Below the pieces are notes generated by a model that was given only the letters and a program-made list of their open reading frames with translations, searched no databases and was not told the origin of the DNA. From contig JAYGXS010000005.1 of the NCBI GenBank assembly GCA_036362985.1, positions 28,798,314-28,862,313 of the forward strand: a stretch of DNA of 64,000 nt, read 5' to 3'. The translations under genes were made by a program, and so were the position numbers. This document shows, piece after piece, positions 7,469-64,000 of this stretch. Positions within the stretch are counted from its first letter, which is position 1. Each line of letters opens with the position of its first letter. Source of the DNA: Ligula intestinalis. Lineage: Eukaryota > Platyhelminthes > Cestoda > Diphyllobothriidea > Diphyllobothriidae.

Positions 7469-7479
7469 GCTAAAAATTT

Positions 7480-18500: not shown

Positions 18501-19195
18501 TGTTAATTCCCGTCGGCAATGAAAGAGTCTGTGCTATTGCTGGATCTTGTAGGTGAGTGTAAGCAGGGCCTGGGGTATTGTGTTCAGGATAGTTATGGGT
18601 GCTCAGATGAATGCGTGCTCACGTTCAACCCGGTAAAAACAGTCCGACCGGCCGTACGGCCTGCGGCACTGAGCCCCCTCCCCCTGCAATCCGGGTGAAT
18701 AAACTTTGCGTGACAGGATGAGGCCCAACGGCGGTGGGCGGTGTAGATACGGCGGTCAACTACATGTGCTCTATTGTAGGAACCATTATGTTCCACTCTT
18801 TTCGGTGCCGGTTAAATTGAAGTATTCGAATAGATGCGGCTGTTCGTGTTCCGGGTGTTCGCGTGAGTAAAAGAGAAAACTGGTCAAGCAATGGAACAGT
18901 TCCTTTTTTGAGCTGTGAAACTCGTGCAGGAGTTCAGCGTTGGAGATAGCAGAAACTGCAACAAAAGGCGACAACTATAGGAGCTGCAAGCCAATTGATT
19001 ATCTGGAGGTGATTGTGCTGGGCTATGTACGTCTACACCAAATCGATACATCGATTGATTGAGGTCCCATTCGTGGACCAAGCTTCAATCAAGTTTCGGT
19101 TCATTTCGTTTCCGGTGTGGGCGATTATCTTGACGGCTGCGAATTTGAACTCATGACCCGTTTCGTCGCTCCGTCCTACAGCCAACACGACAACA
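15541..19195. other. Intronic stretch of 3.6 kb, nothing recognised
   Basis: There are many short open frames below 85 codons but none with a recognisable domain. Small C-rich runs occur near 18390. No RNA gene was found. Confidence 0.45.
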
Positions 19196-19380
19196 CGGCG
19201 GACCCGGGGCTCAATGGTTAGAGCGTTCGCCTCTGACCGGAGAGACGCGAGTTCGAAACTCGGGGTTAGCGGCAATTTCCACTGCTACTTTGGAGTTGAG
19301 GTAGCACCACCTGATGACGCCTAATGAGGCAGAAGAGGCATTTGTGGATGTCCCTTGTGTTTTTCGGTAATAAATTAGTG
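19196..19380 (+). mobile_element. tRNA-headed hammerhead repeat, copy 4 (variant)
   Basis: The head reads GGGGCTCAATGGTTAGAGCG with a GAGTTCGAAACTCGG B-box. The ribozyme part has CTGATGA (19311-19317) and stem II CGCCTAATGAGGCA. That stem carries a C-G pair where other copies have G-C, a compensatory change. GAAG replaces GAAA, and stem III is altered. CACCAC before the first box can pair with GTGG downstream. Confidence 0.6.
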
Positions 19381-21840: not shown

Positions 21841-22469
21841 CGACAAGTCTACCCTTTTTCTGGATTAGCGCCCGAAACGGCAGAAAAAAGTGGTTCACCA
21901 GGCAACTTAAAACCAGAAATAACTGCCGTAAAAATCGTAGTGTATGATTTTGTTAAGAGAGCCTGAGGCAGACTGCCACTTTCGCTCTTCCCCAATAAAA
22001 TTCACAGTGGCAAGACAAGTGAATTCGTTTCACGAAGCATTGCCATATTATGCGAGGTTACGCATATGGCAGTGAGCATATGAGTACCTCCATTAAGTAA
22101 CATAAAATATTTAGATGCCCAACATGAGGAAGTACAAACATCACTCCAATATCAAACAACCTACTTCGGAATGACTATTCTTAACTTGGAATGCTCATCA
22201 AACGTTATTCAACAGCATTTACATGAGACATTACGGTGTTTCAGTTTTCAGCCGAAAGTAAGCATAATACTTATTACGGCAAAAATCTGGTACATAAAAT
22301 CTACACGAAGCACATATTTGACTGACCGTTGTCCTAAACGCCAACACGAGGGAGAGAAAGAGAACACAAGAAAGTGGATTCAAAAACTTGCATGGCATTG
22401 GCTCCCGGAAAAGCTGCGTATGTTTATGGTATCCCGTTTGGGCTGGCTGTAATCGTCCCAAACGTACAC
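21841..22469. other. Intronic stretch, nothing recognised
   Basis: AT-rich sequence with no recognisable coding relic or repeat. Confidence 0.45.
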
Positions 22470-22548
22470 TACCGACAACGACAAGGAAGACTGGACTGCT
22501 CACTTCTGGCTTATTGGCCCTCATCAGCCAACCCTAACCAACCCCAGG
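22470..22548 (-). mobile_element. Hammerhead repeat, copy 5 (ribozyme part only)
   Basis: The reverse strand shows CTGATGA, a stem II GGGCC...GCCA, GAAG, and the variant stem III GTGAGCAGT, then CCAGTC. The GAAGTG variant is shared with copies near 34485 and 44350, so it may define a subfamily. Confidence 0.6.
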
Positions 22549-22964
22549 AGTGGCGATCCTAAGGTCCTTGCAATCCGCTTCAGGAGCAAATTACAGAAGA
22601 GTTGAATAACTTCTTGCGGACGTGGATGGAAACCTCTGGCCACAGCCAATGCGGGAGATTAACGAGCGCGCGTTCATGGTAGGCAGCGTGAGAAAGGTGC
22701 ACACGTTCTTTCCGTGAGATGAATCATCGTGGAAGTGTGAATATTCCTGACAATAATAATTCAGTAGATTAGTTTTTTTATTATGAAACACACTGCAGCC
22801 GAGCTAACGCAAATTGGACTTGCAGTCCTCTTCCTGTGTGGATCTTTGTAAGGTTAATGCTCGTGCCTCTATTTCCCGCCCACTACACTGAAAATTGTCT
22901 GATGTACTAACCATAATTTGGATGCTTTCCAAATGCCTAACAGTTCTTACTTCTATTCTTTTAG

Positions 22965-26575: not shown

Positions 26576-26589
26576 GGCAATGTTATTTG

Positions 26590-28053: not shown

Positions 28054-28206
28054 AGTCACCGACCGCTAAAGGAACTCACTTCTCCGCTCTGCCTTGGGTC
28101 TCATTTCTCGGGTTTAACAGTACAAGCTGCTACGGCCGTTGTCAGGTCGCGAGAATGAGACACTTGACAGAGCGGAGAAGAGAGTTCAATGAGCAGTCGG
28201 TGACCT
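28054..28206. repeat. Foldback: inverted repeat from the hammerhead-repeat body
   Basis: The arm at 28054-28109 (GTCACCGACCGCT...TCTCCGCTCTG...GTCTCATTTCTCG) is matched in reverse by 28148-28206 (GAGAATGAGAC...CAGAGCGGAGAAG...GTCGGTGACC). The arms are about 57 bp, with a spacer of about 40 bp. Both are the linker/tail part of the retrozyme-like family, here joined head to head. Confidence 0.75.
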
Positions 28207-28430
28207 TGCGTCAACGAGTTTCAATATCTCCTGATCAAATCCGGCAAGACAACGAGCTTGGAACTCAATGTCTGGAGCGTTCGATTCTGATCGAAAGGCC
28301 AAGATTTCGATCCTCGAGTGGTACATAACTTGGGCCTGGGTGTGACGGGCTGACGACGGCTTATAAGCTAGAAATGCTCATTCCAGTTTCCCTTGTCTTT
28401 GCCGGCAATAATATCTGCAGATAGACAGTG
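28207..28430 (+). mobile_element. tRNA-headed hammerhead repeat, copy 8
   Basis: Linker (CAACGAGTTTCAATATCTCC), CCGGCAAGACAACGAGCTTG, tRNA-like head with TTCTGATCGAAAGG anticodon-arm relic, then CTGACGA (28350-28356), stem II CGGCTTATAAGCTA, GAAA, and CCAGTTTCCC closing stem I against GACGGG with one mismatch. The tail GTCTTTGCCGGCAAT closes it. Among the most complete copies. Confidence 0.7.
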
Positions 28431-29665: not shown

Positions 29666-30369
29666 AAATATCCTATGATTTGCTACTGTTTTGTAGACAT
29701 GGGCGAGTTGCAAATGCGAGCTGGGCTATGGCAGCAGTTGTGAGCAACTATCAGATAGATGCTCATGTGACTGCTCATCCATTTTGTGCAAAGTACGTGT
29801 GTGTTTTTGTTTGGGGAGCCAGGTCATGTACGTGGCACGCGCAGACGAGCTCATTAACTATGTCAGCCACTACGCCCGTTTCCTGCACCAGCCAACTGAC
29901 CACCTCGGGAACCTGGGGCCTGGGAAAGGAGATGCACACTGAGATCGAGCGCTCAGCGCACCCTCCTCCCATGGCCTGGAAAGTCGCCAACTGGGCCACG
30001 CCGCACGGTCAGCCCAGTGTATGATTGTGCGGAGTGACCAACTGAGAGTCGGGTGCAGCCTCTATGCCATTCTCACTTTCTATTCAGGTTTAGTGGCGCG
30101 TTTAGGCGCGGCTCGGATTGTACCAACCGCCTGCCTCTGCTTGGTTTCAGTCATTCATGACACCAGATACAGTTGAGAGGAGGAAGTAGTGCGGTAGATT
30201 CCCGCAATTTTATTACCACTATAATATTATTCAGATACAATGCTCCGCTTCTATGTCGCTGTGACGTGGGACACACGGTGGATTTCGTCAAAACTGCCGT
30301 TTGAAATATATATGTCTGTGCTCGTGACAGTCTTAGATAGAGGCTGAATACCACGCTTCTGCTACTGTT
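29666..30369. other. Intergenic, nothing recognised
   Basis: A 124-codon frame at 29650-30024 has no recognised domain. Nothing else was seen. Confidence 0.4.
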
Positions 30370-30475
30370 TTCTGTTGATGTCGCTGCTGAAGAATCCTCG
30401 ACGGATGTCGAAACGTCAGGTGAATGAAAGTGTTGTCCCAGCGATCGAATCCGTCTGCTTATTTGGTTTTCCATA
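30370..30475 (+). mobile_element. Penelope 3' end with hammerhead-like motif
   Basis: CTGAAGA (30387-30393), ATCC/GGAT stem II, GAAACGTC (30410-30417), AGGTGAATGAAAG and GTTGTCCCAGCGATCGAAT. This is the forward version of the end sequence at 44944-45167. The first box is mutated. Confidence 0.5.
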
Positions 30476-31052
30476 AGTGCACCAGTAGGCAGCTAAATGC
30501 ATTTTTTGCGAGCCACAATAGGCGAACTTGTGTCACATCCGATTCTTAGCTCACTTCTTCTTTATCCCTCTGACTTCCCACTGCAACACTGTGGAGTTGT
30601 ACTTGCTTGTACATGATACAGCTATAATAATGCCTGATCTAACTGTTTTCATTGACGTCCCAGAAAATGCCTCTCCAGGCGTGATGGTGAGCGGCAGCGG
30701 ATCTAGAGAGCTCCACCCAGTCTCTTCTCCGGTGACGGAGACAGAAGGTCTAAGAACCGCTTCCATGTCTTGATAACTGGTGTCGAGTCAAGTTTGGAGT
30801 TGTCCTCCTCTTCGACGCCTCCAAGTGGGCTGCGGCTCCGAATCGAGGGCAGTATAACAATTATCATGTGCCAAACCAACTTAATAATTAAGTCAGCCTA
30901 GTAGTCATTCTGGTGGATTCGAGATGATTGCTTAGGAAATCCTGCTTGGGCAGTCAACTTGCTGTCCCGTATTGGTGGATTCCATATGGGCAGCAAAGTT
31001 TGGTGGGTAATATCGATCCAAGTGTGATTAAACTCACGGTGTGAAACGCGAC
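30476..31052. other. Intergenic, little recognised
   Basis: CCAAACCAACTTAATAATTAAGTCAG at about 30871-30896 matches part of the Penelope gamma tail near 46670-46695, so a small fragment of that tail lies here. The rest is unrecognised. Confidence 0.4.
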
Positions 31053-31170
31053 ATTCGTAGCTCAAGTAGGTAGAGCGTTGGCTTGTGTAAAAGGCCTCCC
31101 TCCTATGCGTGTTCGAATCCCGCCAAATGCCGCGAATTTTTTTCACAATTGGGTCAACTAAAATATCAGG
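31053..31170 (+). repeat. tRNA-derived SINE, second family, copy 1
   Basis: GTAGCTCAAGTAGGTAGAGCG forms a tRNA D-arm with a good A-box, and GTGTTCGAATCCC is a B-box in a T-arm with four of five pairs. The acceptor arms pair at five of seven positions. There is no sensible anticodon stem, so it is not a functional tRNA gene. The tail TTTTTCACAATTGGGTCAAC recurs with related heads at 53500-53605, 53780-53900 and 62540-62640. Confidence 0.6.
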
Positions 31171-33055: not shown

Positions 33056-34054
33056 CTACGGCTCATCCCATTTACCGATTATGCACTCAATCGAAAAGGC
33101 CGATGGACGAGATACCGGAGGTTGCCGGGAAGCATGGAGTTCCACATGTTCGTCTTCATGCAACCGATGGTGGGGCAAGCTATTGGGAGAAGAGGTCATA
33201 ACCAAATCCAAAGGCAAAACATCGTCACTGGGTGAATTTGATGGCTCCAATGGTTCCTGCGTTTCCATTGAACCGGGAAGCATTATTTCTGGAACCGGAG
33301 TTTGCATTGAAAACATACTTGCAGGCGGGGCTTTACAAGAGCTGGTCTGAGTGCGCTTATACCGTTTACGCCGTCGAAGAAAACTGCCATTTGTGAACAT
33401 GCCTTTGGAATTGGGGTCCAACGTCCAGTAATTTCCCTTCCCCGTGCTGCCGGCTTCACGAGGCACTTTAACGAAACAGTCATTGAGGGAGAGGTTGTGT
33501 CGAATGGAGTTCTGCCAGGAGGGGAAGCGTTCACGGTAGTAGGGAAAACGTGAGGAGATGAAGTCACAGATGCCAGACAACGTGAGTCGGCTGTTCGGAG
33601 CATTGAGTATGGCCATCGTAATCAGGGCAATGTAGGAGTACGGTGGCTTAACGGAATGCACAAAAAACTCCTTTTGGTCACGCGAGCTCCCGGTAGAATC
33701 ACAGGTTTGCTCGAAGGGCTCCTGAAGTCTCCCGAATTGTTCCGCCGGAGGACTGTGTGTGGAATCACTGAGACTGTATCCTCTCCCACAGGGGGTGGGT
33801 GAGGTGTTCTCGGCCGCAGTGGACCCACTGCTGCTGAGAGCATCTAGGGCAGCTTTGTAGAATAGACTGTCGTGCAGGAAACTCGGACTGGTCGGCTCCT
33901 GTGCCGGCGGATGACTTCGAAACACGTCCTGTGTCATCACAGCACTGAAAATTTGCATCTGCAGTCGAAACAGATCGTCCCCGGCTCTCTGCCACAGCGC
34001 TTCCGGTGCTTGCATCTGCGATTGTGTGATGAGCGGCAACCAAACCCCCTGCAT
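33056..34054 (-). CDS. foxD: FoxD-like forkhead transcription factor, single exon
   Basis: The gene encodes 332 residues in one uninterrupted exon. The forkhead DNA-binding domain spans residues 135-234, from [15 protein letters not shown] through [19 protein letters not shown] (recognition helix) to [12 protein letters not shown] (wing 2 and basic tail). [20 protein letters not shown] and NGSFLRRRK are characteristic of FoxD; FoxQ2 is the main alternative. FSIECIIG at residues 320-327 fits the eh1-like Groucho co-repressor motif FSIxxI(I/L), found near the C-terminus of many FoxD proteins, so repression of target genes is likely. Flanks are low-complexity and Ser/Pro-rich. FoxD genes are commonly intronless. 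It sits alone between repeats with no conserved neighbour. The ATG at 34054 is the first of the frame, and no better start was seen. Confidence 0.94.
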
Positions 34055-34474
34055 TGTGAGAATGATGACAACTAGTGTGACTCCTTTCTGCCAGGTGCTG
34101 TGTGTTAGGTCACTCTACCAGTTATTGGTCGGCATGTGCATCCGCGACACTGCTCGTCTTTCGATTGGGCAAAACTGGCCAATCACGCTGCCAATACAGC
34201 CGCACCCCACCAGTAGCGCCCATCGACTGCCTGCCAGACTGTCCAATAAACACTTCGCGCGAACACCTGAGACACCTGATTTCAGACCATAGGCGTGGAG
34301 GTACGCCGATAATAGGTTTGACAATTTACGTCCAGCAATTTTTGAGATAAAGAATGCACCAGACAAATTTGGCTAGCATGAATCGTCTGCAAATGGTGCC
34401 ACCAAATAATGAGGGAGTGAGATCCACAGGCGCTAAGTGGGTGAACGTTGAGAGAAATTACCGAAGAATCTAGA
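34055..34474. other. Upstream of foxD
   Basis: Presumed promoter side of foxD. No TATA box could be assigned and no repeat was recognised. Confidence 0.4.
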
Positions 34475-34540
34475 GAAACTGAGCACTTCTGGCTTATGGG
34501 CCTTCGCCAGTCAGTCGGTCTTACTTAATCTCTGGTTTCT
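34475..34540 (-). repeat. Hammerhead repeat, fragment (copy 9)
   Basis: The reverse strand reads GACTGACTGGCGAAGGCCCATAAGCCAGAAGTG split across the stem I, stem II and GAAG parts of the family. The first box is degraded to CTGGCGA. It belongs to the GAAGTG variant. Confidence 0.5.
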
Positions 34541-42040: not shown

Positions 42041-43056
42041 GATGAGAACAGCAGGGATGCTATGCAGCCGCGTGGCTAATCCAATCGGAAGATTCAGCAT
42101 TTGTCGTCGGTGGCACAACCCGGTCAGGGGATGCTGGCTGGAGTGTTTCTGCTCCCTGCCATTTTTTGGAACGCAGAAACACTGGAGTGGACGAAAAGCG
42201 TTTCCGCACTATAGTTTTCATCAAACTTTTTGTTTGAGATTCGTTTATCAGCAGTTTGAAAGGTAAGGAAAATGCTCCTTCGGAGAAATGAAAACCATAG
42301 AGCGAAGTTTTACCAGAAAACGCCTCCTACTAAGAAGGTACTCACAGAGCTCTATAGCGTATAATATTGCTATCACGGAATAGTGCTCATGGTCCACGTT
42401 ATATGCCTCTATATTCCAAGGGTCTTTTCGACTAGTCTGATTAACGAAGTTATGGCTTTACAAGTTATGTAAAGCTGTGTCGTAAATGTAGCATTTCATT
42501 GCAGATAGAAACACGCATAGGTAAGCATAAAATAACTCAGAAATCAGGTTTCTTGTACACACGTCTAGATAGGCCCGAGGGGGGGAAATAAAAGAGTACG
42601 CATGACTTCTATGGTCGCCTCAACGGGAAGCGGGAACAGGGAACCGCCAGAACTACACATGGTTTTGCCCTAAATTCTGGGGCAACTAGATTCACGATTA
42701 AGGTGGAGGTAGGGGTAAGGTTGGGGCTAAGGTCTGAGTTAGGATTAGAGTCCGGCTTACGTTTAGATTTTATTGTTATGTTAGCCTTAAAACACGCGGA
42801 GATGTACCTTTGTCGAAATTTACCACAAGGCTATATATTTTAACCGGATATGACATTTATTTGCGCATGCAATCGCTAAGCTCGCTGGTGGTGCCACGAC
42901 CAGGGTGCAGCCAAATAACAGCCATAAATCCATCATTAACATATCATAATATGAATGTATGTGTTTTGCCGATCTAGTAGAGAAGCAATTAAGTTCCGCT
43001 ATGCCCAGGAGCTCGCACCCCAAACCCTGCAGACCGTCACATAGTGACTAAGACGA
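42041..43056. other. Intergenic, nothing recognised
   Basis: A G-rich, GGTTAGG/GGGTAAGG tract lies at 42690-42790, the reverse form of the CCTAA-like tracts. No gene was recognised. Confidence 0.4.
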
Positions 43057-43180
43057 TATGATGAGGTGGGTGCGACAAAGCAAAGGGAGACCGGAATGGC
43101 CATTTCTGGCTGATGACGGCTAATAAGCCAGAACTAGCCATTCCGGTTTCCCTTTGTTTTGTCGGATCCACTTCATCACA
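43057..43180. repeat. 55-bp-arm foldback built from the hammerhead tail
   Basis: The arms at 43057-43111 and 43126-43180 are reverse complements with about 8 mismatches in 55, around a 14-base loop. Each arm holds CAAAGGGAGACCGGAATGG-like sequence, the reversed ribozyme stem III and tail. The loop end still reads CTGATGA and CGGCTAATAAGCCA. Confidence 0.85.
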
Positions 43181-44254
43181 TCATAATATTTTCTGATATT
43201 CAGGTCAAGTGTCCCTAAGCCCTTACTAAGCTTAGGATGGCGAACCCGAGTTCGTCTCCCGTGCTACACGGTCGCAATTGTGACCAGTCCTAGTCCTGCG
43301 TCACCATGCAGCTAAGGGAACTCCCCTATACAGACGATCTTGATTAATTTCGCAAGTAAACAAGCCGATTCACACACAAAGACGGATACGCATGCACGCG
43401 TGCGGACGGATGGCGGGGATATCTTTTTACTTCAACCAAACGATCTGCACAACAGTCGCCCGTCGCGGTTTTTTTAAATTTTCCATATTTGAGACTGCAC
43501 GAAGCCGGGGGGGGGGCGTGAAGCGTGGTCCCAAAGTGTTAAACAATTTCACTATGCATTCGCTGGGTGACGCGCGACCTCTTTGTGGGGGGAGGGGATG
43601 GGGCGACCCACACTAATGGCTAGCCGTTTGTCAAACTTCCCCACCCAGACAAACCTTGCGATCGAGGTGGGGTGCTTGTCATTAGGCGGATTAACAACAA
43701 CGGCAGCCTGGTCGAATGCCCATTGGTCAGAGCGGGAATAGGTATGGGGGGAGGGGGAGAGAACGCCAAGGTGATCGGTCTGTCCGCTGTGGTTGGACCG
43801 CAATGTGGCAAACACAAAGGCGAAAGGGAACAGCTTACTCTTGCCACTTTAGTGCGAATGGAAACTTCTGTTAGAATGTGCACAACCACAGACCAACGGG
43901 GTTCTTGTCCCACAGTCTATGCACGAAATACGTGTGGCCGAAGGCTGAACGTTATCCTGGTCACTCGAGTTTTCCTGCGCTAGTACTTGCCTCGTCGGTT
44001 TTTTTTTTCCAATATGGTGGTATTATTATTGTTTGATTTAAAATAGAATGTGATCAGGGTTCGCGAGCTGGTTCAAACTGGTCCCCAGAGGCTGCATCAG
44101 GTGCCTTGGTTCCCAAACGTGTTTTATCTGGGTCGTACCTTCGATGTGAAAAAATGATTGTTACGCCACAGAATGTGTGAATTGCGAATAGAAGTGTTCA
44201 CATTGGTGCATAAGCATCCACCAATCGGTTACGAGACTCACTTGTACCCTTCTG
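43181..44254. other. Intergenic, nothing recognised
   Basis: Overlapping open frames at 43552-43983 on both strands reflect GC-rich composition with G runs at 43507-43515. No domain was recognised. Confidence 0.4.
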
Positions 44255-44420
44255 CCTTGGAGTTCACCCTCAAGCCCCACCAGCAGCTGCAGAGTGGGCG
44301 GTAGTATAGACAGGCAATATTGCCAACAAAGACAAGGGAAATTGGACTGATCACTTCTGGCTTATCAGCCGTCGCCAACCAGCCATAGCCAACTCCACGT
44401 ATTGCGCCACTCGAACGTTA
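44255..44420 (-). mobile_element. Hammerhead repeat, copy 10
   Basis: The reverse strand has the end of the tRNA-like head, GGCTGG, TTGGCGA (mutated first box), a perfect stem II CGGCTGATAAGCC, GAAG, a TGATCA palindrome in place of TGGCCA, and the tail GTCTTTGTTGGCAAT. Body sequence continues to about 44255. Confidence 0.6.
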
Positions 44421-44943
44421 ATTCATAATTATACGAGATAGAAGGCTGCAGATGAGGACGAGAGGGGAGATCTACAGGCGCAGTGTACCAAAATTGCAGG
44501 ATGTGATCTCTCAAATCTAGAGCAGTTACATTTTACTTACCCTGCAATTTACGGAGTTACCTTCCTAGACCCCTGCGAACTTCGGACGCACAATTATCAA
44601 GGACTTATAAATACCTCTCTGCATCGGGTAAATCTTAGAATGTCCTCAAAACACTTCCAGCTTATTACAAAAAAAGGTGCTTAAATTTACATCGTCCCTT
44701 TAAGTCGTATTGGTAAACCTCAAAATATATTGTACCGTATTATAAAGTGTATGCAGTAAGATGCCATACTCTACGCATATGTACCACCTTATGCCGGCCT
44801 ACGTCTCCTTTGAGACGCTGTGCCCTCGTCAGCGTATAGTTTATGCGACGCCGAATGCAGGTGTGATGATGCAGGTTACTGGACAGCAAACGAGATGATC
44901 TGAATGCCAATGCAAGCGAACATGCGAGTCCCAGGAAGCAATT

Positions 44944-45167
44944 GAGAAGAAGATGACTCGATCGCTGGGAAAATACGTTTATTCACCTGACGTTTCGACA
45001 TCCGTCGCGAATTCATCATCAGAGACATGAGTAGGAAACAGTGGCAGAAACGGGTAATGCATGCACTGCTACTATTTCCTACTCATTTCTCTGATGATGA
45101 ATCAACGCCGCATGTCGAAACGTCAGGCGAATAAATGTATTGTCCCAGTGATCAAGTCATCTTCTTC
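44944..45167. repeat. Palindrome of two Penelope ends, each with a hammerhead motif
   Basis: Arms at 44944-45047 and 45066-45167 are inverted copies of about 100 bp with an 18-base spacer. Each includes TCTCTGATGATGA, ATCC or GCC in stem II, TGTCGAAACGTCAGG, then AATAAATG or a similar end. Both have a canonical CTGATGA, GAAAC and GUC, so each could in principle cleave. Confidence 0.8.
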
Positions 45168-45243
45168 ATCTTCTTCTTCTTCTTCTTCTTCTTCACCTTC
45201 TTCTTCTTCTTCTTCTTCTTCTTCTTCTTCTTCTTCTTCTTCT
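45160..45243 (+). repeat. (CTT)n trinucleotide microsatellite
   Basis: About 26 CTT/TTC units with one ATC and one ACC interruption, directly after the right arm of the palindrome. Retroelement 3' ends often seed such arrays. The lysine-rich reverse frame over it is an artefact. Confidence 0.95.
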
Positions 45244-46589: not shown

Positions 46590-46870
46590 CGGAAAGTTCG
46601 AATAGCCAGGAAATTTCGTCGAACGCGTCGAGTTTTTCACCATTGGGTCAACTCAAACCAAGCAAAGCTGCCAAACCTCTTAATAATTAAGTCAGATTTG
46701 CCGATGTTTCGGACAGCTGGACGTACTGTCCTTTGTCAAAGCGAATGCTGACTGTTATCGTTCAGCAGTTTAAAGTTGTATTGATCGATTTTTCTCCGTT
46801 CGCTATCTGCCCTTGCGCGTGGATGTTGGCTTGGTGGTCTGTTCTGTTCCCACGGTAGAGGATGCTGGCA
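46590..46870 (-). mobile_element. Penelope gamma 3' tail (left inverted repeat)
   Basis: The block is a reverse complement of 48985-49185 and extends further left. It carries a reverse-strand hammerhead-like motif (46718-46745 region): TTGACAAAGGACAG, CTGTCCGAAAC, AUC, GGCAAAT. GGACAG/CTGTCC gives a six-base stem II. The far end includes the TTTTTCACCATTGGGTCAAC tail shared with the second SINE family. Confidence 0.65.
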
Positions 46871-46889
46871 ATAGTAGCGAATATTGGAG

Positions 46890-47994
46890 TCCCAGGAAGC
46901 AGTTCAGAAGACGAAAGTGCGGTCACTGGAACAACAGTTTTATTTGCCTGACGTTTCGGATTCCCTCGGGAATCCTTAATCATAGGTAATGAAAACATAT
47001 GTATGGTCATGTGCAGATGAGGTGGACACATGCACAGTCCGCACGGTATTAATAATTAACAGTGGTCATCCACGTGTGTGTGATAATTATTCACTTCTGT
47101 AGCCACCGCTTGGGTCTTAATTAATGCGGTACTGGCTTGACACTTCGCGTCCGACTCACTAATTGCCATAATTACCATGTCAGCGTCAGCGTCAGATGCG
47201 GGCCTGATAATGGCCTGACAATTATGCCCACTGTCGTCAGAGTTATTGTTGCATCCAGCCCTTCCCACGTGACTGATTGTTCTTGTTCAGGAAACTTCTC
47301 AGTACACCGTATGGGAAAGCCAAATCGTTGCGTTTGTTGATGGACTGGGAGCCTGAGAACCATGACTCCAGCAGCTCGCGGCTCACGTGGTTGTCAACTA
47401 TTGCAAGAATTTTGGCCTCGTCAAACTTGAAAATATGGCCGGGTCCCGTCGAGTGAGCTGCAACCTTAGAGTTAGCATCTTTCTCACCACCGCTGCATGC
47501 TCGGCCATTTGCGTCCCGAGTAATCTTCCGGTTTCTCCGACATAGTTACTTTGTCCACAACTGCACCAAATCCGGTAAACGACTCCAGCCATTTCCTGCC
47601 GTGGCAGTGGGTCTTTTGGTCTCATGACCCGGCGCCTGATGGTTGCTTCTGGTCTGTGCGCAACTCCAACTCCAAGTGGGGTGAGTAGGCGGCTGACTGC
47701 TTCCGCTATATTCTTCACGTACGGAAGAGCCCGCCAAACTTTTGGGCCAGTTGAAAGTGGCTTATTCTCTCGTTTGCGTATGCATTGGTTGACAAAATTG
47801 TACGGGTAACCATTGGCTCTCAGTACCCGTCGAAGTTGTTGTGTTGTTGACGCTGGCAATCCTGCTCCCCCTTCCGGTGGTTTCGTCACAGGGCCGTCTT
47901 CGTCTGCAAATCGTGACTCAGGTTTGACCGCGCCCTGTCTTTTACTTACGTAATGGCGCATGACTTTACAGGCCTGACACTTGGTCTTCATCAA
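46890..47994 (-). pseudogene. Penelope-like element, GIY-YIG part and 3' end, family beta
   Basis: A 198-codon reverse frame carries the end of the reverse transcriptase region (RRVLRANGYPYNFVNQC), the linker (KVWRALPYVKNIAEAVSRLL), RRRVMRPKDPLPRQE, and VVYRIWCSCGQSNYVGETGR, an intact-looking GIY-YIG core with its Tyr, Gly and Arg. A frameshift near 47480 leads to HSTGPGHIF, then SRELLESWFSG. The first 50 residues match the gamma 3' tail (RHYVS-QG and ADEDGP), so the copy is chimeric. The hammerhead-like motif (46945-46990) closes it. This is the best-preserved Penelope nuclease in the window. Confidence 0.87.
46945..46990 (-). ncRNA. Hammerhead-like motif, Penelope beta type
   Basis: The reverse strand reads CTATGATTAA, then GGATTCCC/GGGAATCC, a perfect 8-bp stem II with a GA loop, then GAAACGTCAGGC. 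The cleavage triplet GUC and GAAAC are canonical. The first box is one change from CTGATGA but offset by TTAA, so activity is uncertain. Confidence 0.5.
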
Positions 47995-48990
47995 GTATCA
48001 ACCGAAGTTTTGGGCTCGTTATGTCGATGGCACTTTCGTCATTGTCAAAAAATACGACATTGAGCACCTCAAAGAGTTACTAAACTCGGTTGACTCAAAT
48101 ATCCAATTCACGATGGAAGCGGAAAGAAAGAACCAATTTCCCTTCCTCGATGTCCTGGTGCACCGTTGTTCCTCTGGACTACTGTAAACCATAGTATTCA
48201 GAAAATTTACGAGCACGAAACAGATACTCCACTTCAACAACAATCAACCTCTGTCTCACAAACGTAGCTGTGTTCGTACTCTTTTCCAAAGAGTTGGAAC
48301 ACATTGCAGCACAAAATCTGACAAAAGAGTGGAACAACGATACCTACGTGACCTCTTTCGATCTAATGGGTACCCGAATTCTTTTATCAACCAAAGCAAG
48401 CGCCGAGTGAACAAACGGCGGGCAGCAACTTCGCAATCCGAAGTCTGGAGGGCCATTCCCTAAATAAAAGTAGTCTCCGAAGCAGTCTCCTGACTGTTAC
48501 AACCCATTGGAGTAGGCAAAGCCCATTGACCTCAGGCGACAATAAGCCACCAAAAGGTGCTACCTAAAGACAGACTGCACTCTACTGAAACCCCCGCAGT
48601 TGTCTACAAAGTACGTTGTAAAGATGGAGACTGTAATTACTTTGGAGAAACAGGACGCAAATTGCAGACCCGCCTACAACAAGACAAAGGGACGGCCCGG
48701 AGACTGGGCCCTAACTCGCAGCTTGCCACACATATTGGAGAGACCATGCCACGACTTCGATAATCAAGAGACGACCATCGTAGGCTGAGGAGACTCAAAA
48801 GCTGAAAGATTGACGCTTGAGGCATGGTATTTAGACACCAATTCTGTTAGCAAGCAGCTGGACCTCCGTGCGGCCTAAAAAGTCCTGCGCCATTACGTGA
48901 GTGAAGGACAGGGCACAGCCAAACCAAAGTCAGGAGTTGCAGATGAAGACGGTCCTGGGACGAAATTATTAGGAAGATAGGGCAGGATTG
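47981..48990 (+). pseudogene. Penelope-like reverse transcriptase and GIY-YIG, family gamma
   Basis: Opens with FWARYVDGTFVIVKKYDIEH, the catalytic box with the second Asp changed to Gly. KNQFPFLDVLVHR follows, then LSHKRSCVRTLFQRV, YLRDLFRSNGYP and SEVWRAIP with stops. Then VVYKVRCKDGDCNYFGETGR is the GIY-YIG core, with CC spacing different from the beta copy. The 3' region (48865-48990) reads RHYVSEGQGTAKP and ADEDGPGTK. It runs divergently from the beta copy, sharing a boundary at about 47985. Confidence 0.87.
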
Positions 48991-49185
48991 CCAGCATCCT
49001 CTACCATGGGAACAGAACAGACCACCAATTGCCATCACGCCAAGCCAAAATCTACACACAATGCCAGACAGCGAACTTACAGCCGCAAATTTAACCTGCT
49101 GAACGGTAACAGTCAGTATTCGCTTTGACAAAGGACAGCAGGCCCAGCTGTCCTTAATGTCGGCAAATCTCCAAATTTATTTCGG
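48985..49185 (+). mobile_element. Penelope gamma 3' tail (right inverted repeat)
   Basis: Continues the gamma element to a hammerhead-like end. GATTGCCAGCATCCTCTACC, CAGTCAGTATTCGCTTTGAC, GGACAG/CTGTCC and GTCGGCAAAT are mirrored at 46690-46870. The GAAAC box is lost (TTAAT), so this end should be dead. Confidence 0.65.
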
Positions 49186-50119
49186 TGAGCACGAGATAAA
49201 TTATAATTTATCAGTTATGTTATACCGAACGGTATCCAGAGTTTTCATGGTGCTGGACTCACTCATTCTCGCCTCCTTCCTAAACCAGTCAGCCCCTGAA
49301 CTTGTCAGTCAGCTAGTGAATGGACAAGGTGGGATATCGACTGAAAAGTACAGTGGGACTTTGGGCGCATTATTTTTTGTCTGTTCAGCTATTCCAATCG
49401 CGAAGTATTGACGGAGAGGGAAGAGATAGAGAGAGGGATGTCGATGCTCTGCACGCGCTCATAATTTCAAACAGTCTGACGCGCTCAAATTTACCACGAT
49501 ATGCAAAAGCCGTGTCCCATGAGGTCGCTACCTAGCGGCCGACTGGCAGACTGAGAGTCCGACTGGAACGACTCCTTCTTAGCGGGGCTTCTATTAGACT
49601 CTCACGCATGTGCGGTCCGAGGCATAGAGCCCCTCGAATGAAATCTTGCGGAGTGCGTATGGAATGCGTAGGTGGACGGTCTAGTCCTGTCAACCACCAC
49701 GCCCTCTATCAACATTAGTTTATAAATCGGTTCAACCAGTCTTGGGGAGAAAGAATGAGGAGTAAGGTCGACTCCTAGTGCACATTTCCCTTTTTTTAAC
49801 ATTCTGGCGCGTTTGAATCTATCGAAGTACGCTAAAAGCCGTGCATTGGAAGGCTGCCAGCCGACGGATTAACACGAAAGTCATTACAAAACGCAGTCAG
49901 ATTACAGTGTTAACTTAATGGCACTTCCGCTAGGCTACACCCTTCCTTGTTTGTGGGAAATACTGACAGCTTGTGCAAGGACGAGCGCATGTGGTTGCCT
50001 GCCTAGACATGGGTTCATGCCATGCCACCCACATGCGTCCAATCCCGCTTCTGGTCTTGTTAATTCTTTCATGCTATTGGGCCCAGTCGTGTAAGGGAGG
50101 AGGCAGTGTGGTAAAACAT
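49186..50119. other. Intergenic, nothing recognised
   Basis: Short open frames only. Confidence 0.4.
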
Positions 50120-50430
50120 TGCCGGCAAAGACAAGCGAGACTGGAATGGCCATTTCTGACTTATAACTCGTCGTCAGCCAGTCGTTACAAACCCCAAGTG
50201 GTGCCCCACCCGAGGCTCGAACCCTCGACCTTTTGATCAGAAGTCTAACGCTCCAACGAGATTATTGTTTTGCCGGTTTAAATCTGGAGATATTGACACT
50301 CCTTGATTAATGCTCACCGATCGCTACCGGGATACGCCCGTCTGTCCTGCCTTGGGTCTCATTTGCGAAGCCCGCCAGCAGTCGTAGAGCGGCTAGTAAT
50401 CTAGGCAGATAGCAATAAACCGGCGTCAAA
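50120..50430 (-). mobile_element. tRNA-headed hammerhead repeat, near-complete unit (copy 11)
   Basis: This reverse-strand unit shows the whole layout in about 310 bp. It starts with a TATTGCTATCTGCCTAG-like end, then a body (GCTGGCGGGC, ATGAGACCCAAGGCAG), the linker (AAGGAGTGTCAATATCTCC), a tRNA-like head (GAGCGTTAGACTTCTGATC and GAGGGTTCGAGCCTCGG), and the ribozyme. GACTGG and CCAGTC form a perfect stem I, CTGACGA and GAAA are canonical, and stem III is TGGCCA. The unit ends GTCTTTGCCGGCAATG. The anticodon-arm relic TTAGACTTCTGAT points to tRNA-Arg(UCU). Confidence 0.75.
50128..50183 (-). ncRNA. Predicted type I hammerhead ribozyme
   Basis: Stem I GACTGG (rc of 50178-50183) pairs with CCAGTC (rc of 50139-50144), six of six. 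CTGACGA is the rc of 50171-50177. Stem II CGAGTTATAAGTCA has an A-U where other copies have G-C, a compensatory change, plus one G-G mismatch and a C-A at its base. GAAA is followed by AUGGCCAU, with predicted cleavage after AUU. The four-base stem III has no loop, so two copies would have to pair. Confidence 0.65.
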
Positions 50431-51934
50431 GTGCGATATAGGCGGGATAAAACAATCATGTCCAAGTCACCGTCTCTACATCATTGAGGCACACGGTCAA
50501 CTTCGCCAGAATCGCCTGTTGAACTTTCGTATATTGGTGCATGTACATACTTTTGAACGGTGCAAATGCTCACCTCACAAAAAATTCGAATCCATCCAAT
50601 TTCGCCCTTTTACTTTAAGCTCCACTTTACCAACTGTACAGGGAAGCGCAACCCCCACATTAGTTGTACCTTCTGCCCGACTGAGTCCGACCGGGATCTT
50701 AAAGGAGGAAACGCTCATATAGAGCTTCCTCTCGTCGATGACCTTTGTACATCTTCTTCAAAACGGTGGTAGCTTAGTGCTCGCTCTTTCTCTCACTCGC
50801 CATTTAACGCTCACCCTGCGTGACTTGCAGTGGCGGCGAGCCGTACTCCACTGCCTATTGGTCCACAGAACAGAGGTTTGCACAAAGGTGCGACAAATGT
50901 GCATGAGGGCAATTGTTTAAAAGCACAGTCAACCGGCCTCTCCATCATCGGTATGATCATGCCTCAGGAGATGGTCGAGGGGGGGGGAGGGAGAGGCAAC
51001 GAAGGGAGGCCTGTTGTGAATACCAGAATTAGTGATAAGGGACTGCAAGGTGGGGCCACAGGGTGATGACGTCCGAAGACGATCATTTTGTTCCTGATTC
51101 GTAGGTCCTCTGTCTACTGAAAGCTGAATATGGCGGCGGGACTAGTCATTGCAGGCGAGAGAGCGAATGCGTGCGCACACATACAAGTGAAAGTTACTTT
51201 AGGGGTCTCGTCGGGGGAGGGGGGGAAGGGGGGCAAGGACCTCCTGGTGGGCTGCCGACATGTTTTCAAAACTGACACCACACTGGGGGCGCGCACACGG
51301 CATCATGTGTCTAACAGCACCTGCCGGGCATATTGTATATATTCGCGGGCGCGCACACACACAGAGATGGAGAGGGAAGGCGAGACGCGATGCGGTGAGG
51401 AGGCGACAACTGGGCCAGCTGCTGCTGAACCCCTCTGCCTAACAGATTATATACCAATACAGCTACTGTTCCCGTACGCCCCCCCCCCCCCAGCTCCGGC
51501 TCGTGGTAATCTTAAGGCAGCTCAGGGCGAAAACATGATAACGAGGTGGCGTAGCAGGAGCCGCAATAGGAGATGCAGCGAAAAGATAAACTGTGTCTAA
51601 ATGATAGGAGTCTCTCTACTGCACTGTGTGATGGACAGCGTGGAGAACCGGAGTGTCCACCCACCGCCTGCAGTTTCCCGTCTGGTGGTGTCTGTTAACT
51701 GGCGTCGGGGTGAATGTTACGATACTTATTGACCGTACTATAATTGATGATTGAGGGTAGAGAAAACAGAGGGAGAAATACATGGGAGAGAAAGTGCAAG
51801 AAGGAAGGGAGAAACCAAGTGAGAGTGAGCGAAAAAACATAAATGAGGCGGTGATAGACGCAGAGAGAGGACATGGAATATGAACGATTGGTCCGAAGAA
51901 GTGTTAAAATTGGAAAAGAAGGGGTAGGACTGCC
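50431..51934. other. Intergenic, G-rich tracts, no gene recognised
   Basis: G runs at 50977-50991 and 51211-51232 and a C run at 51479-51491 lie in GC-rich sequence. The 156-codon frame at 51130-51600 spans these and a CACACA stretch; no domain was recognised. Confidence 0.45.
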
Positions 51935-52130
51935 TCGGGTGAGGCAATATTTGTGGTTGGGTATGACTAACTGATGACGACTAGTGAACCAGAAATGGCC
52001 ACTCCAGTCTCCTTTGTCGTTACCGGCATTGCTGTCTGGCTAGACTACTAGCTGCTGGCGGACCTCGAGAATGAGCCCTAAGGCACAGAGTGAGTTCCGC
52101 TAGCGATCAGTGAACGGTAATCAACGAAGG
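51935..52130 (+). mobile_element. Hammerhead repeat, copy 12
   Basis: CTGATGA (51971-51977), stem II CGACTAGTGAACCA, GAAA, TGGCCACT, CCAGTCTCC. Stem I keeps GACT/AGTC but the two pairs next to the core are lost. The tail TACCGGCATTGCTGTCTGG and body TAGACTACTAGCTGCTGGCG, GAATGAGCC continue to about 52130, showing the tail leading straight into the body. Confidence 0.65.
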
Positions 52131-52889
52131 TTGCCTATGTTGCCTCCCCCACCTCCATTCACAGAACAGAGCATGTAAGAGCTCCGTAGTACAGGTTGTT
52201 TCGCTTTAAATTTCAAGGAAGTTGGGGTTAAGAGAATGGTTAAGATTGGTGTTAAGGTTATAGTTCGTGATCTGCTTAAGTTTGCGGCAGAGATTTGACT
52301 TAAAGTCAGGACAGACGAATAGGTAACCCTACTGTAGGTTAGAGCAGTGTCACCTGTGCTAAAGGCGTGTGTTTGCTTACTTCCTCGTCCTGTCGAGTGG
52401 GCGATGAAGTTTGGGAAACATAAGCGATTCCTACCGAAAATTAAATTGATGCAAGAAAGTAAACTGTCTATGGGATATAAAAAGAAGATGATTTGCGCAT
52501 CAGACGCCAGTAAATAAGCCCTACTCCAGCATGCGTGAAATTTGACTCGCGTTTATCCAACGTGGTTTTAGCACCTGATGTCCACCACGCTTAATGGAAT
52601 ACGATATTTCGGCTGATAGGAGTCAGCGTGTGGAACACTTACTTGTCTTTCTTTGTCTTAATTCGATAGATTGCTGTTCCTTCGAATTTCGTCGGTGCTT
52701 TTGCTTGGATTCATGGCCAGGTTAGAAGAAGGAAGGAAAGCCGGCGATTGGGGCCGAAAAGGAATAACAATAGGATTAAGCGTTTCGTCAATTCTATCTG
52801 ATTCGAATAATGCCTTCAAAGTCAATATTTCACACATGGGTTGGCGTTCACCAATCCCAAACAGAACTCAATCGTCCCACGCTGTCACG
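52131..52889. other. Intergenic, nothing recognised
   Basis: No repeat or coding relic beyond a short GGTTAAG/GGGGTTAAG tract near 52215-52260. Confidence 0.4.
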
Positions 52890-53085
52890 CAGCTCATTCT
52901 CGAGTCCCACCAGCAACCACAGAGCGACTAGGCGTCTAAGCAGATAGCAATGCTAGCAAAGGCAAAGAAGACTTGAATGACCATTTCTGGCTCATAAGCA
53001 ATCATCAGTCTGTCATACCCAACCCCAAGGGATACGCCATCCGAGGCTCAAGCTCACAACCTTTTGATGAGAAATCTAAATATTT
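52890..53085 (-). mobile_element. Hammerhead repeat, copy 13
   Basis: The reverse strand has the tRNA-like head relic (TCATCAAAAGGTTGTGAGC), CTGATGA, TTGCTTATGAGCCA, GAAA, TGGTCATT and CAAGTCTTC, then the body. Stem I is half lost. Core boxes are canonical. Confidence 0.6.
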
Positions 53086-53499: not shown

Positions 53500-53605
53500 C
53501 CAGTTGTGGAAATCTCTGCGGTCTCGGTGGGATTCGAACCCACGAGAGCAATGAGCAGACCTTAGTGCAGCCAATGCTCTAACCACCTGAGCGATGAGGC
53601 TCCAC
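53500..53605 (-). repeat. tRNA-derived SINE, second family, copy 2
   Basis: The reverse strand reads GCTCAGGTGGTTAGAGC (D-arm) and GTGGGTTCGAATCCCAC (a perfect T-arm). No anticodon stem can be drawn, and the acceptor arms pair poorly. GGCTGCACTAAGGTC and a TTTCCACAACTGG tail are shared with the other copies. A real but diverged tRNA gene is the alternative, considered unlikely. Confidence 0.6.
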
Positions 53606-53900: not shown

Positions 53901-55109
53901 TTCATTTTAGTGGAAACTCTGTTCTGTGAGAAAGTCAGAGATAATGATTTGCACCAAACGCCATCTATGTATGCGGCAGCCTAACATGTGTGCCACCCTA
54001 GATCCTCTAAATACAATCTTGCACACTTTGGGGTTCGATGACATCCAATGGGTTGCCAGAACCCAGTCCGATTGGCTCGGACTAAAACGGTACCAAGTCC
54101 TTTGTTATCAGAAAAAAAAATCACAGAGGGTGTGATGCGTCACCAACAGGAAAAAACTTCTTGGCTGACGAAGACAGGGAGAAATAGAGTGTGTGTAACT
54201 TCAGCTATCGTCATGTTTCCCCCCAGAATCCAAGTAATGCATATGTTATCAGAAACTTCCTATGTCGTAAGGATACTTTCCGCACTAGATGAACTAAAAA
54301 TTGGTGATCAGGCTGCATACAGAAGAGACTATTAGCTCCGATAATTTGTCAGTGATCCTTAGTGTAAGGTTGTTGATAGGGCAGCTTAAAGGACAGAAAT
54401 AAACAGAAATATACACAGCCACCGGCATCATTCAAGTGAGCTGGTTTTCTTTGCACTGCATAAGACCTGTATAAGTACGACTACTTGCACACACAACTAA
54501 CCCTACCCAAAATACCAACCTTATCCCTGTGTTAGGTTAAGACCACGGTGTTCGGTAGGAGTAGCATACGTTGCCGAGGTTAGTAGGGTCACACATCCAC
54601 ATACATTCGTTGTCCCAGTATGCTATAAATGGCAAACAAACCGTGAGCAGTATGATTCGCAGTCAAAAGCAGACCACGAATCATCCCATACGAGCGCGAA
54701 AACGATAGCCCCTTGGCAGACCTCCATAGTCCACCGATTATTAAAGAATTCTCGCTCGGTCAAGAAGCCTTGTGACATTATCTTTGGATATAATAATCTT
54801 TTTCATCGGAGTATATATGCGGAAATAATGTTCACATACGATAATCAGAAGCTCAGAAGCGACAGCTCAAAGTTTATGCTAACGATTGATTACAAACCAG
54901 TCTTAAAAAAACAAAAACACAGTGTTGTTGCCATTGAGATTTGTCTTGCAGTGCACATACACTGAGCCACATAGGTCTTGGCGTCATCCCTTTCAGACAC
55001 AAAGGGTGTCCTGACCTTTCTTTTCAACTGTCAGTATGGAATGCATTTCCTTGCATCCTTAACTCGAAGTAGCAATAAGGGCTTCTTGGCGCAACCTCGA
55101 AGACGTCGA
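53901..55109. other. Intergenic, nothing recognised
   Basis: No coding or repeat relic was recognised. Confidence 0.4.
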
Positions 55110-55200
55110 AGCTTGAATGAGTCACAGTTTAGAACGGATATGTCTGGCTGATGATGACTTATAAGCTAGAAATGGCCATTTCGGTCTCCATCGTCCATTC
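55110..55200 (+). mobile_element. Hammerhead repeat, copy 14 (ribozyme only)
   Basis: CTGATGA (55148-55154), stem II TGACTTATAAGCTA closed by a U-A pair, GAAA, TGGCCATT, then TCGGTCTCC. Stem I pairs through G-U wobbles with GTCTGG. All core residues are canonical. Confidence 0.65.
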
Positions 55201-57712: not shown

Positions 57713-58519
57713 CTAGGGTATCACTCTCTGACCCATCGGACCGGGCTTCAAACCTCGGGGCTTTTCATGAGTTCAGTGCTATTTATACGTCAGAACTGGT
57801 CACCATATTATTCCTGGTCATTTAGAGGTTCATTTATTAATGCATTAATTTGTGTTATTTATTTAGCTACTTTTTGAAAAGGTCATCAAGTTTGCGCACA
57901 CATGTCACGAGAGTACGGACATGTAGTTCTCCTCGCCTGAAGATTTTTCTGGCTACTTCTAGAACATGCTCTCTGCCAGAGCCCAGGTATATTTGCTGCC
58001 TCCCAGCAATAAGCTGGTAATGCAGCTGGAGGGTTACTCGAACTTTGCTGATTCAGTTAAACAACTGTATACAACCGGGTAGCAGCATGGCAACTGTGCT
58101 GGGACTTTATTAGTGGACAAATACCTTCTTCATTATCATTTAATTTTTTAGTTTATTTAGCGGCATTCTGTAGGCCTGAGGCCACGAATATCTGCCACTA
58201 ACATCTAAACGTAGAATGCGTATGGTGAATTTATCGCTTGCATTGGTTTGTCCCATTAGTACATGTGGTGTTCAAATATGTAAATTTTTTTCATGATTAT
58301 TACATAATCGTAGAATGAATCGGTTATGCATTCTCCTTTAGAGCTGAGCTGCATCCTAGCTCTCTGGTCAGTTGTTGAATTTTTTGATAGGGATTGACTT
58401 TGATTAAAGCATCGAGGCGATCATCCTCGAAGTTAGACTTCCATCCAGAGCGTCCACCGTACCGAAATCATTTTCTTTGAAATAATCAAGCCATTTTCGA
58501 GCTTTTCTTTCAGCAACCG
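57713..58519. other. Intergenic, nothing recognised
   Basis: AT-rich, no recognised repeat or gene. Confidence 0.4.
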
Positions 58520-58705
58520 GTTAACATTGATCAAGGAGTGTCAATATCGTCCAGTGGTTAGAGCGTTAGACTTCTGATCAAAAGGTCGCGGGCTCGAGTC
58601 TCGGGTGGGCACCACTTGGGATTGGCTATGACTTGCGATTTGTAACTAACGAGTCAGAAATGGCTATCCCGCTTTCCTTTGCCGGCAATGCTATCCGAAT
58701 AGAAT
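58520..58705 (+). mobile_element. tRNA-headed hammerhead repeat, copy 15
   Basis: Linker (GATCAAGGAGTGTCAATATC), tRNA-Arg-like head (CAGTGGTTAGAGCGTTAGAC, TTCTGATCAAAAGGTC, GGGCTCGAGTCTCGG), CACCACTTGGG, then a degraded ribozyme (CTTGCGA, GAAA, TGGCTATCC) and the tail TTTGCCGGCAATGCTATCC. The head is among the best kept; the ribozyme is not. Confidence 0.7.
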
Positions 58706-62510: not shown

Positions 62511-62539
62511 AACGTCTCTGAATTGGAATCAGCTGTGAA

Positions 62540-62640
62540 AACTGGGCAGCCTCGGTGGGATTAGAATCCATGGCAGCAGGTGTAAAGGTTGTGTGCAGCC
62601 ATTGCCCCAACCACCTGAGCAAGGAGGCCCCGACTGTCCG
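62540..62640 (-). repeat. tRNA-derived SINE, second family, copy 4
   Basis: The reverse strand reads GCTCAGGTGGTTGGGGCAAT, GGCTGCACACAACCTTTACA, GGATTCTAATCCCACCGAGG and a TTTTCACAGCTGATTCC tail. It parallels the copy at 53500-53605, with a damaged B-box. Confidence 0.55.
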
Positions 62641-62754
62641 CTGTTAGTTTACTCACATCGAATGCCCAGCGCAACCTGTACACAAGCCTTGCACTTGCTG
62701 TCGTGGGTTCGAAATGCACCGAGCACTCATTGAGATAAATAGTACTTTTTAGGC

Positions 62755-62935
62755 AGATAGTACCACCCGGCAAAGACAAAGGAGACTGGAATGGCCATTT
62801 CTGGCTTATTAGCCATCATCAGCCATTCATACCCAGACTCAAGTGTTGCACCACCCGAGCCTCGAACTCGCGATCCTTCGCTAAGAGTCTAACGCCCTAC
62901 CCATTAAGCCAAGAACTTGCTGTCTTGCTGGTTTA
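62755..62935 (-). mobile_element. tRNA-headed hammerhead repeat, copy 16
   Basis: On the reverse strand: CCGGCAAAG end, tail, ribozyme, CACTTGAG, tRNA-like head (TTAATGGGTAGGGCGTTAGA and GCGAGTTCGAGGCTCGG) and the AGCAAGACAGCAAG linker. CTGATGA (rc of 62816-62822), a fully paired stem II TGGCTAATAAGCCA (rc of 62802-62815), GAAA (rc of 62798-62801) and TGGCCATTCCAGTCTCC are all in family form. Stem I pairs five of six. This copy has the best core. Confidence 0.75.
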
Positions 62936-64000
62936 GTGTTTTATGTTAAGGCTAATTTCAAGCAACCAGAAGAAAACAGCATTTAAAAAGGTGCAAGCAA
63001 AATATAGTCTTATTATTTTGGAGTCACTCTATGAATTCTTCGAAGGTCAGTAATCGAATTTAATCACATGTATCGATGTTTTAAAAGCCTATTTTGCAAG
63101 CCGAGGTAGTGACTAGACCAGAGGTCGGGAAAGTATGCCTCGCAAGCCAGATGTGGCTCTTTTGATGATTGCACCTAGCTTTCTCAGATAAAATTAGAGT
63201 CAGGAAACTTCAGAGTCTGTGATTTATTATTATTATTATAAAAAAAATTAATCCAGAGGCTTATAATACTCACATTTAATTGAATTCAATCTTAAAATAT
63301 ATTATATGGCTCTCACTGAAATCTTTTTCCAAATGGTTGCTTCCTTGGCTGTCTGAGTCAAAAAGTTTCCGAAACTGTGGCCTAGATGGTTAGGGAATCT
63401 AGTAATGTACTGTTTGAAGACATAAATACACACCTTTGGCCGAGGCTAACGAGGCGATCGCATGCCGCTCCATCCCTAATGACAGTTGTTCACTCCTTGC
63501 ACGTGAGAGTGCACTTATTCGACCCATGAACATTATTCACAGCCTACCCTATAGCCTCACCCAGTCCATTGACCTCTACTCGCCGCGCGGGTGGTGCGAT
63601 AAGGGTGAACTTTACCTATGAGACTTTTATAAATCCTACCAAACTCTCCTATTTTCATTATCAGCAAAATTACACAAGCCCGATTATAAATTGCCGAAAA
63701 CATATGCTTATACTTTTCAAGTGAAACATGGGAATATTTGCAGAACTTGCTGGAGTTTGCCAAGTTTTACTGGCAGGCACATACGCTCTGCGTAGTTGAG
63801 AATTCTAATTCATCTAATTGATCCTGAGGGCCTCTGGAGTGATACGAAACAAATTAACTCTCCAGCGGCAAATACAACAGATTTTGCGAAGGTTTAAAAG
63901 GAAAAAGGCCTCCACACGTATCGCAGGGTAAAATGGATGAGCTCAGTGTCCTTCGGCTACCTGCTAAGCATAAAAAAGGAGACCCCCGGCGCTGACCTAC
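62936..64000. other. Intergenic to window end, nothing recognised
   Basis: AT-rich, with a short TTATTATTATTATAAAAAA stretch near 63225. No gene or repeat family was recognised. Confidence 0.4.

Follow-up and report, generated by a model that had tools for sequence, protein, structure and literature searches.

A short repeat family of the tapeworm Ligula intestinalis with a tRNA-like head and a hammerhead-like motif

The closest described counterparts of the repeat family treated here are SM-alpha and Sj-alpha of Schistosoma, flatworm SINE-like repeats that carry a type I hammerhead; in S. mansoni, SINEs similar to SM-alpha derive from tRNA-Gln-TTG, and blastn gave about 38,500 candidates with the Rfam hammerhead (PMC2770079; this and the other sources given by PMC number are drawn on for particular passages). 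A 335-bp satellite member in Schistosoma is likewise similar to SM-alpha. Metazoan non-LTR retrozymes hold a type I hammerhead in units of 170-400 nt, with duplications of more than 4 bp and platyhelminths named among the hosts, and Penelope elements are regarded as a strong candidate for moving them (PMC7229834). Penelope-like elements have a tandem tendency, start reverse transcription internally and carry minimal hammerheads in their pLTRs (PMC11167929, PMC6155905). Repeat-borne hammerheads with a proposed dimeric fold are described from Dolichopoda pDo500 and newt satellite 2, the hammerhead region of pDo500 being more conserved than its remainder (PMC2837043, PMC6155905, PMC3088659). Helenus, a short non-autonomous element of the TRIM type, also carries tRNA-like sequence, in an LTR, and has a primer-binding site and a polypurine tract (PMC10886601).

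The tapeworm family was analysed in a window of 64,000 nucleotides (the whole stretch of DNA studied) and in a sample of the host genome. It resembles SM-alpha, to which we liken it by description, in being a SINE-like flatworm repeat with a type I hammerhead motif, but its head is like tRNA-Arg-UCU and none of the motifs scanned with Rfam scores above the threshold. It shares with the retrozymes the hammerhead type, the unit size and a multimer or circle logic, whereas its copies span about 1-1.6 units rather than arrays, and frequent head-to-head pairs, the tRNA-like head and atypical positions 10.1/11.1 set it apart. Penelope differs in encoding a reverse transcriptase and GIY-YIG, pDo500 and newt satellite 2 in being satellite DNA, for which the cited passages speak of no tRNA-like head, and Helenus in its LTR layout, which was not apparent in the tapeworm copies as mapped. 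Among the matches listed from the open-access literature, no title or abstract opening named a hammerhead repeat in cestodes, and a search for exact 20-mers in viral and prokaryote contigs gave 0 matches. An earlier interpretation from the letters alone (the sequence-only reading) did not recognise a family with this head and core; that holds for the family as far as we searched, although the plan itself is described (SM-alpha, PMC2770079; retrozymes, PMC7229834). The explanation we prefer, and judge reasonably probable, is a non-autonomous retroelement of the retrozyme or SM-alpha kind, with multimeric or circular RNA as its template and Penelope machinery as the probable copying agent. tRNA-hammerhead SINEs, known from flukes, would then occur in tapeworms as well, built on another tRNA.

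BLAST of the window with the copy at 50120 and a hand-made consensus gave 22 matched stretches in about 15 loci. All 15/15 positions listed in the sequence-only reading carry the family, the one near 34475 weakly, and the list is extended by 5545-5740(-), 26576-26798(+), 28034-28110(-) and a palindrome at 43055-43182. The sequence GTCTTTGCCGGCAAT matched six times in the window with at most two mismatches, where 0.09 matches were expected. The unit is about 308 bp long, with a body at 1-150, the tRNA-like head starting at 151 and reaching about 225, the hammerhead at 242-286 with predicted cleavage after 280, and GTCTTTGCCGGCAATG at 293-308. The host genome (644,354,889 bases, 2377 contigs), in which the window spans 28798314-28862313 of contig JAYGXS010000005.1, yielded 11,093 first-look candidates in a single search, from which 40 were scored and the best 30 of the 40 used; because of this selection the 30 loci are biased to long, well-kept copies. 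Their majority, the consensus of genome copies that had been called for, differs from the hand consensus at 4/293 positions.

The reference copy, 50117..50431(-), is slightly longer than one 308-bp unit and aligns to unit positions 295-616, which bears out the statement that the unit begins with what it ends with. Its hammerhead motif, 50139..50183(-), scores 63.4 bits with our own covariance model, of which it is a training member, and the predicted cleavage falls between U and C of ATT/CCAGTC. The tRNA-Arg(UCU)-like head occupies 50196..50268(-), limits approximate; its A-box region lacks 11 bases, and its B box, GTTCGAGCC, is intact. TAAAACA flanks the copy at 50112 and 50448, a weak sign, repeats of at least 7 bases being present in 60/500 controls. 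Copies running from head through hammerhead to body lie at 44197..44414(-), 51932..52127(+) and 52825..53079(-), and a head-hammerhead copy at 62740..62936(-) has an intact core and U-A at 10.1/11.1. Truncated copies occur at 22467..22553(-), where the hammerhead end is kept, and at 55106..55195(+). The copy at 58499..58703(+) is internally deleted with a damaged hammerhead (12.6 bits with our model). The weak fragment at 34472..34516(-), found by BLAST at E 0.042, retains a hammerhead of 32 bits (E 3.1e-8) in the same model without being a training member.

The sequence-only reading had set out a fixed order of body, linker, head, hammerhead and end. The order is instead circular: the supposed end, GCCGGCAATG, passes directly into the body in several copies (e.g. 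26569-26367, 51932-52127 and 53079-52825), and 14/14 tested unit points are each spanned by at least five of the 22 matched stretches in the window. The main copies at the best 30 genome loci measure 255-495 nt, and 21/30 are longer than 308 nt. As to head-to-tail tandem copies, the largest of these reaches 1.6 units; none of these 30 loci holds a full dimer or a longer array, and Tandem Repeats Finder reported neither dimer nor array in the window.

The 3′ ends are clustered. In the window, 17/18 fall inside two 36-nt arcs, near unit positions 295-22 and 89-124, against a random expectation with mean 9.4/18 and maximum 14 in 400, the 18 ends having been hand-picked from 22 (ends 74, 130, 175 and 274 were excluded for internal breaks or weak alignments) and one, first placed at 8, having been set at 14 after a longer alignment. 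For the 5′ starts the figure is 9/18. The best 30 genome copies favour the second cluster only, with 24/30 of the 3′ ends within unit 100-136, and their 5′ starts are scattered. All mapped 3′ ends and 5′ starts, in the window and at the best 30 genome loci, are more than 5 nt away from the predicted cleavage site, so linear cleaved monomers are not the usual template. The clustering of 3′ ends at two places, the scatter of 5′ ends and the copies of more than one unit argue for an internal start and copying over more than one turn, and the multimer or circle logic proposed earlier agrees with the circular map; we consider a multimeric or circular RNA template very likely. Three short motifs, TCGGTGAACG, CCGGCAAGAC and CCGGCAATGC, at unit positions of about 94, 138 and 300, look alike by eye. 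Two of them adjoin 3′ end clusters, and they are possibly start signals.

Some of this would also be expected of an ordinary tRNA-derived SINE moved by a LINE, with the hammerhead-like segment an inert relic: the tRNA-like head, the preferred 3′ ends and the truncated 5′ ends fit, a LINE endonuclease frame is present in the window at 10410-11414(-), and copies of more than one unit would come from tandem duplication or nested insertion. We think this unlikely, given that most of the best 30 copies exceed one unit and that their scattered 5′ starts show no pile-up at the head.

The head itself is tRNA-like in part. At one genome locus (L005) the Rfam tRNA model scores 26.3 bits, aligned over the D arm and the anticodon loop CUUCUGA, from which the anticodon UCU is read, and at another (L015) 19.1 bits with the D arm aligned. 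The earlier reading of the head as tRNA-derived is supported by the D arm and loop of L005, at a score under the threshold of 29. At E 10, Rfam gave no tRNA match to the heads of the window copies, ARAGORN found no tRNA in the consensus with its defaults and, once relaxed, none that convinced, and the T arm and acceptor form no cloverleaf, leaving the 3′ half without a tRNA fold. Letters that we take to be A- and B-box-like are 87% and 88% conserved in the best 30 genome copies versus 86% elsewhere, no clear excess. The unit has no TTTT stop, so transcripts could run through joined units. Other tRNA-like repeats in the window lie at 53501-53603, 62530-62631 and 31050-31133; the Rfam tRNA model gives 23-24 bits, below threshold, at 31051 and 53519, and ARAGORN calls one of these repeats tRNA-Tyr.

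The hammerhead elements follow each other in type I order as GACTGG-CTGATGA-C-GGCT AATA AGCC-A-GAA-AT GGCC AT-T/CCAGTC (slash, predicted cleavage). The nine core bases are 94.5% conserved in 17 window rows versus 78.6% for non-CpG columns (p 0.0002), and 94.4% versus 86.3% in the best 30 genome copies (p 0.0013). The prediction that CUGANGA and GAAA stand out above the rest of the repeat is borne out for CUGANGA and for GAA, but A15.1 in the GAAA box reaches no more than 71% conservation among the window copies.

Covariation in the helices was compared with shuffles that leave the relatedness among motifs in place. Fourteen window motifs (34484 and 58552 were dropped as gapped, 43060 as partial) have 6 pairs changed on both sides versus 2.9 +/- 1.3 when shuffled (9/500); their paired cells, 78.0% versus 75.9%, were equalled in 58/500 shuffles. 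Across 57 motifs, with 5/48 genome motifs dropped (L003:1650, L016:2441, L022:1637, L024:2003 and L026:231), 23 cells are changed on both sides versus 12.9 +/- 3.1 (0/500) and the covariation score is 0.205 versus 0.176 (1/500), while the number of pairs with a change on both sides, 10, was reached by 88/500 shuffles. A second family keeps the helices in new letters. Its window copy at 19176..19371(+) is divergent, with all three stems changed and pairing mostly retained (CCAC/GTGG and GCCT/AGGC at 19305; stem I of 4 pairs, stem III one wobble), and two copies at genome locus L001, 2615 and 2826, have a stem I of ATCCAG/CTGGAT and a stem II that is partly broken in both. These re-lettered helices are, as sequence comparison goes, the strongest single item for the predicted hammerhead fold, and a core and helices maintained across two families argue against an inert relic in a LINE-moved SINE.

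A rival hairpin, CTGGCT/AGCCAG, was chosen by RNAalifold on 14 rows, yet showed no covariation excess with either 14 or 57 motifs. Folded alone, 4/5 motifs prefer structures other than the hammerhead, and the consensus reaches -12.7 kcal/mol in another structure versus -7.2 kcal/mol in the hammerhead. The core is intact in 35/57 motifs, and core and fold are both kept in only 11/57. Folded as circles, the hand consensus gives -125.5 versus -98.8 +/- 5.1 kcal/mol for 100 shuffles and one real copy -101.3 versus -91.9 +/- 5.3 kcal/mol for 60 shuffles.

The outcome of the proposed Infernal search with the Rfam hammerhead models formally counts against the sequence-only reading. No match was found in the window, or in three single regions, at the curated threshold or at E 10, and six of the best 30 genome loci gave a single match, to Hammerhead_HH9 (RF02275) exactly on the motif of L015, with 19.0 bits versus a threshold of 52. 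This match proves little because the stretch also gives 20.7 bits with the model of an unrelated frameshift element. The type I hammerhead claimed for the repeat accordingly finds its support in core conservation and helix covariation, and not in Rfam scores. Those sub-threshold scores, and positions 10.1/11.1 that are not G-C, are what one would expect if the likeness to a hammerhead had arisen by chance, as is an unrelated weak match of our loose descriptor at 39649(-). The descriptor was passed with local partners by the consensus (stems of 6 and 4) and by copy 19311 (4 and 4), and only through distant stem I partners by copies 28350 and 62822; it matched 4 times in 150 simulated 64-kb strands, but none of these combined a stem I of at least 5 with a stem II of at least 4 pairs. 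With the covariation across 57 motifs added, chance seems very improbable, and from sequence comparison we hold with high confidence that the motif is a hammerhead-derived fold.

Whether it still cleaves is a separate matter. At 10.1/11.1 the 57 motifs have C/A in 37, U/A in 11, A/A in 3, G/A in 2 and others in 4, including one G-C, so that C or U usually stands opposite A in place of G-C. After A15.1-U16.1, the 10.1/11.1 pair is described as the one best conserved among hammerheads (PMC3088659). Its being so rarely G-C here means that activity may be low or absent, and the non-canonical letters would suit the relic of a LINE-moved SINE; an active ribozyme is, from its letters, a real possibility that we somewhat doubt. 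The family would offer a natural hammerhead without the usual G10.1-C11.1 pair. Stem III has 2 bp and lies within the palindrome AUGGCCAU; in the stem III palindrome ATGGCCAT the centre pair is changed from GC to AT in 2/14 window motifs and unpaired in 3. Palindromes of such a kind appear for dimeric hammerheads in the Figure S8 legend of PMC3088659, and the palindromic stem III would fit dimeric cleavage.

Head-to-head inverted pairs were found at 5/14 scored window loci, namely 5545-5912 (by BLAST, minus arm 5545-5746 and plus arm 5738-5912), 7345-7688 (with unit positions 10 and 7 as the outer 3′ ends), 26367-26798, 28034-28426 (plus arm about one full unit) and 43055-43182. The last is a palindrome of the hammerhead end, either a snap-back or an inverted pair; its identity is 81%, its centre lies near stem II in resemblance to snap-back cDNA, and its arms extend about 20 bp past the family sequence. 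At 9/30 of the best genome loci the main copy has a second copy on the opposite strand starting within 60 bp. Inverted pairs might be read as the terminal inverted repeats of a DNA fold-back element or MITE, which we find hardly credible since the unit position of the arm junction varies from locus to locus, single copies are in the majority and the ends differ between arms. In most arms of the pairs the two outer ends coincide with preferred 3′ sites. Twin priming would not predict this, and it counts further against a LINE-moved SINE.

Direct end repeats of 8-12 bp were found at 4/30 of the best genome loci versus 1.8% of 600 controls (threshold, at least 8 bp), and in one locus (L024) an 8-bp repeat encloses the entire inverted pair. 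In the window, end repeats of at least 6 bp were in no excess (7/14 loci versus 200/500 controls), the best case being a flush 8-bp repeat, AATATTTC, at 52825-53079.

Two Penelope loci in the window have the same inverted-pair layout as the repeat family. The first is a head-to-head pair of Penelope-like fragments at 46694..49170, in which 46694-46872 matches 48987-49170 and 47849-47974 matches 48872-48998 in inverted orientation, and whose left arm contains a further Penelope fragment at about 46876-47849; a GIY-YIG frame at 47398-47997(-) has named relatives in Sparganum, Spirometra, Schistocephalus and Dibothriocephalus. The second is a palindromic, head-to-head 3′ piece at about 44905..45167. 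Four Penelope 3′ pieces, on either strand (11570-11840, 30330-30470, 44890-45180 and 46860-47120), have GAAACGTCAGG in common, which we take to be probably the minimal Penelope hammerhead, whereas the repeat family has GAAATGGCCATT. The family thereby offers a countable genomic signature in common with Penelope copies of the same window. Penelope makes up about 10% of two related tapeworm genomes, and RTE-BovB and CR1 LINEs equal it in abundance there (PMC8166898). That abundance, together with the 8-12 bp end repeats, would allow a hammerhead retrozyme moved by an RTE or CR1 LINE instead. We rate this as quite unlikely, in view of the internal start sites and of a head-to-head signature matched at the two window Penelope loci. 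A mobiliser of the Penelope type is slightly favoured.

In the mechanism we propose, the A- and B-box-like letters suggest that pol III would start at the tRNA-Arg-like head. Self-cleavage of the multimeric RNA would take place at the hammerhead, probably in a dimeric ribozyme formed by way of the palindromic stem III, and the cut monomers would close into circles. A Penelope-type reverse transcriptase would then start inside the RNA at one of the two preferred sites and copy one or more turns until falling off. Priming from both target strands would give head-to-head pairs, and single copies would result otherwise. For the purified Penelope protein of Anolis, cutting and extension of both strands and an internal start on the RNA are described, and insertion in vitro was unaffected by hammerhead mutants (PMC11167929). 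We tentatively suggest, as a possible though less than probable step further, that Penelope proteins copy circular RNA made by the hammerhead, priming simultaneously from the two nicked strands of the target and each beginning at one of the two preferred sites of the circle, with head-to-head pairs of circularly permuted units as the footprint. If so, the mobiliser of animal retrozymes would be identified, and the hammerhead would act as a dimer and either tolerate or need A11.1.

Other features of the window include a repeated element at 13956-14540 and 21457-21852 with inverted ends about 390 bp apart. Stretches at 4468-5160 and 13448-13999 (+) match successive parts of the Pfam tektin model and are probably one gene. 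Two frames mark the host as a diphyllobothriidean tapeworm: the tektin frame at 4468-5160(+) has its nearest match in Sparganum proliferum (92%, covering 79% of the query), and the FoxD-like frame at 33056-34114(-) has its nearest in Schistocephalus solidus (76%) and Spirometra sp. Aus1 (75%).
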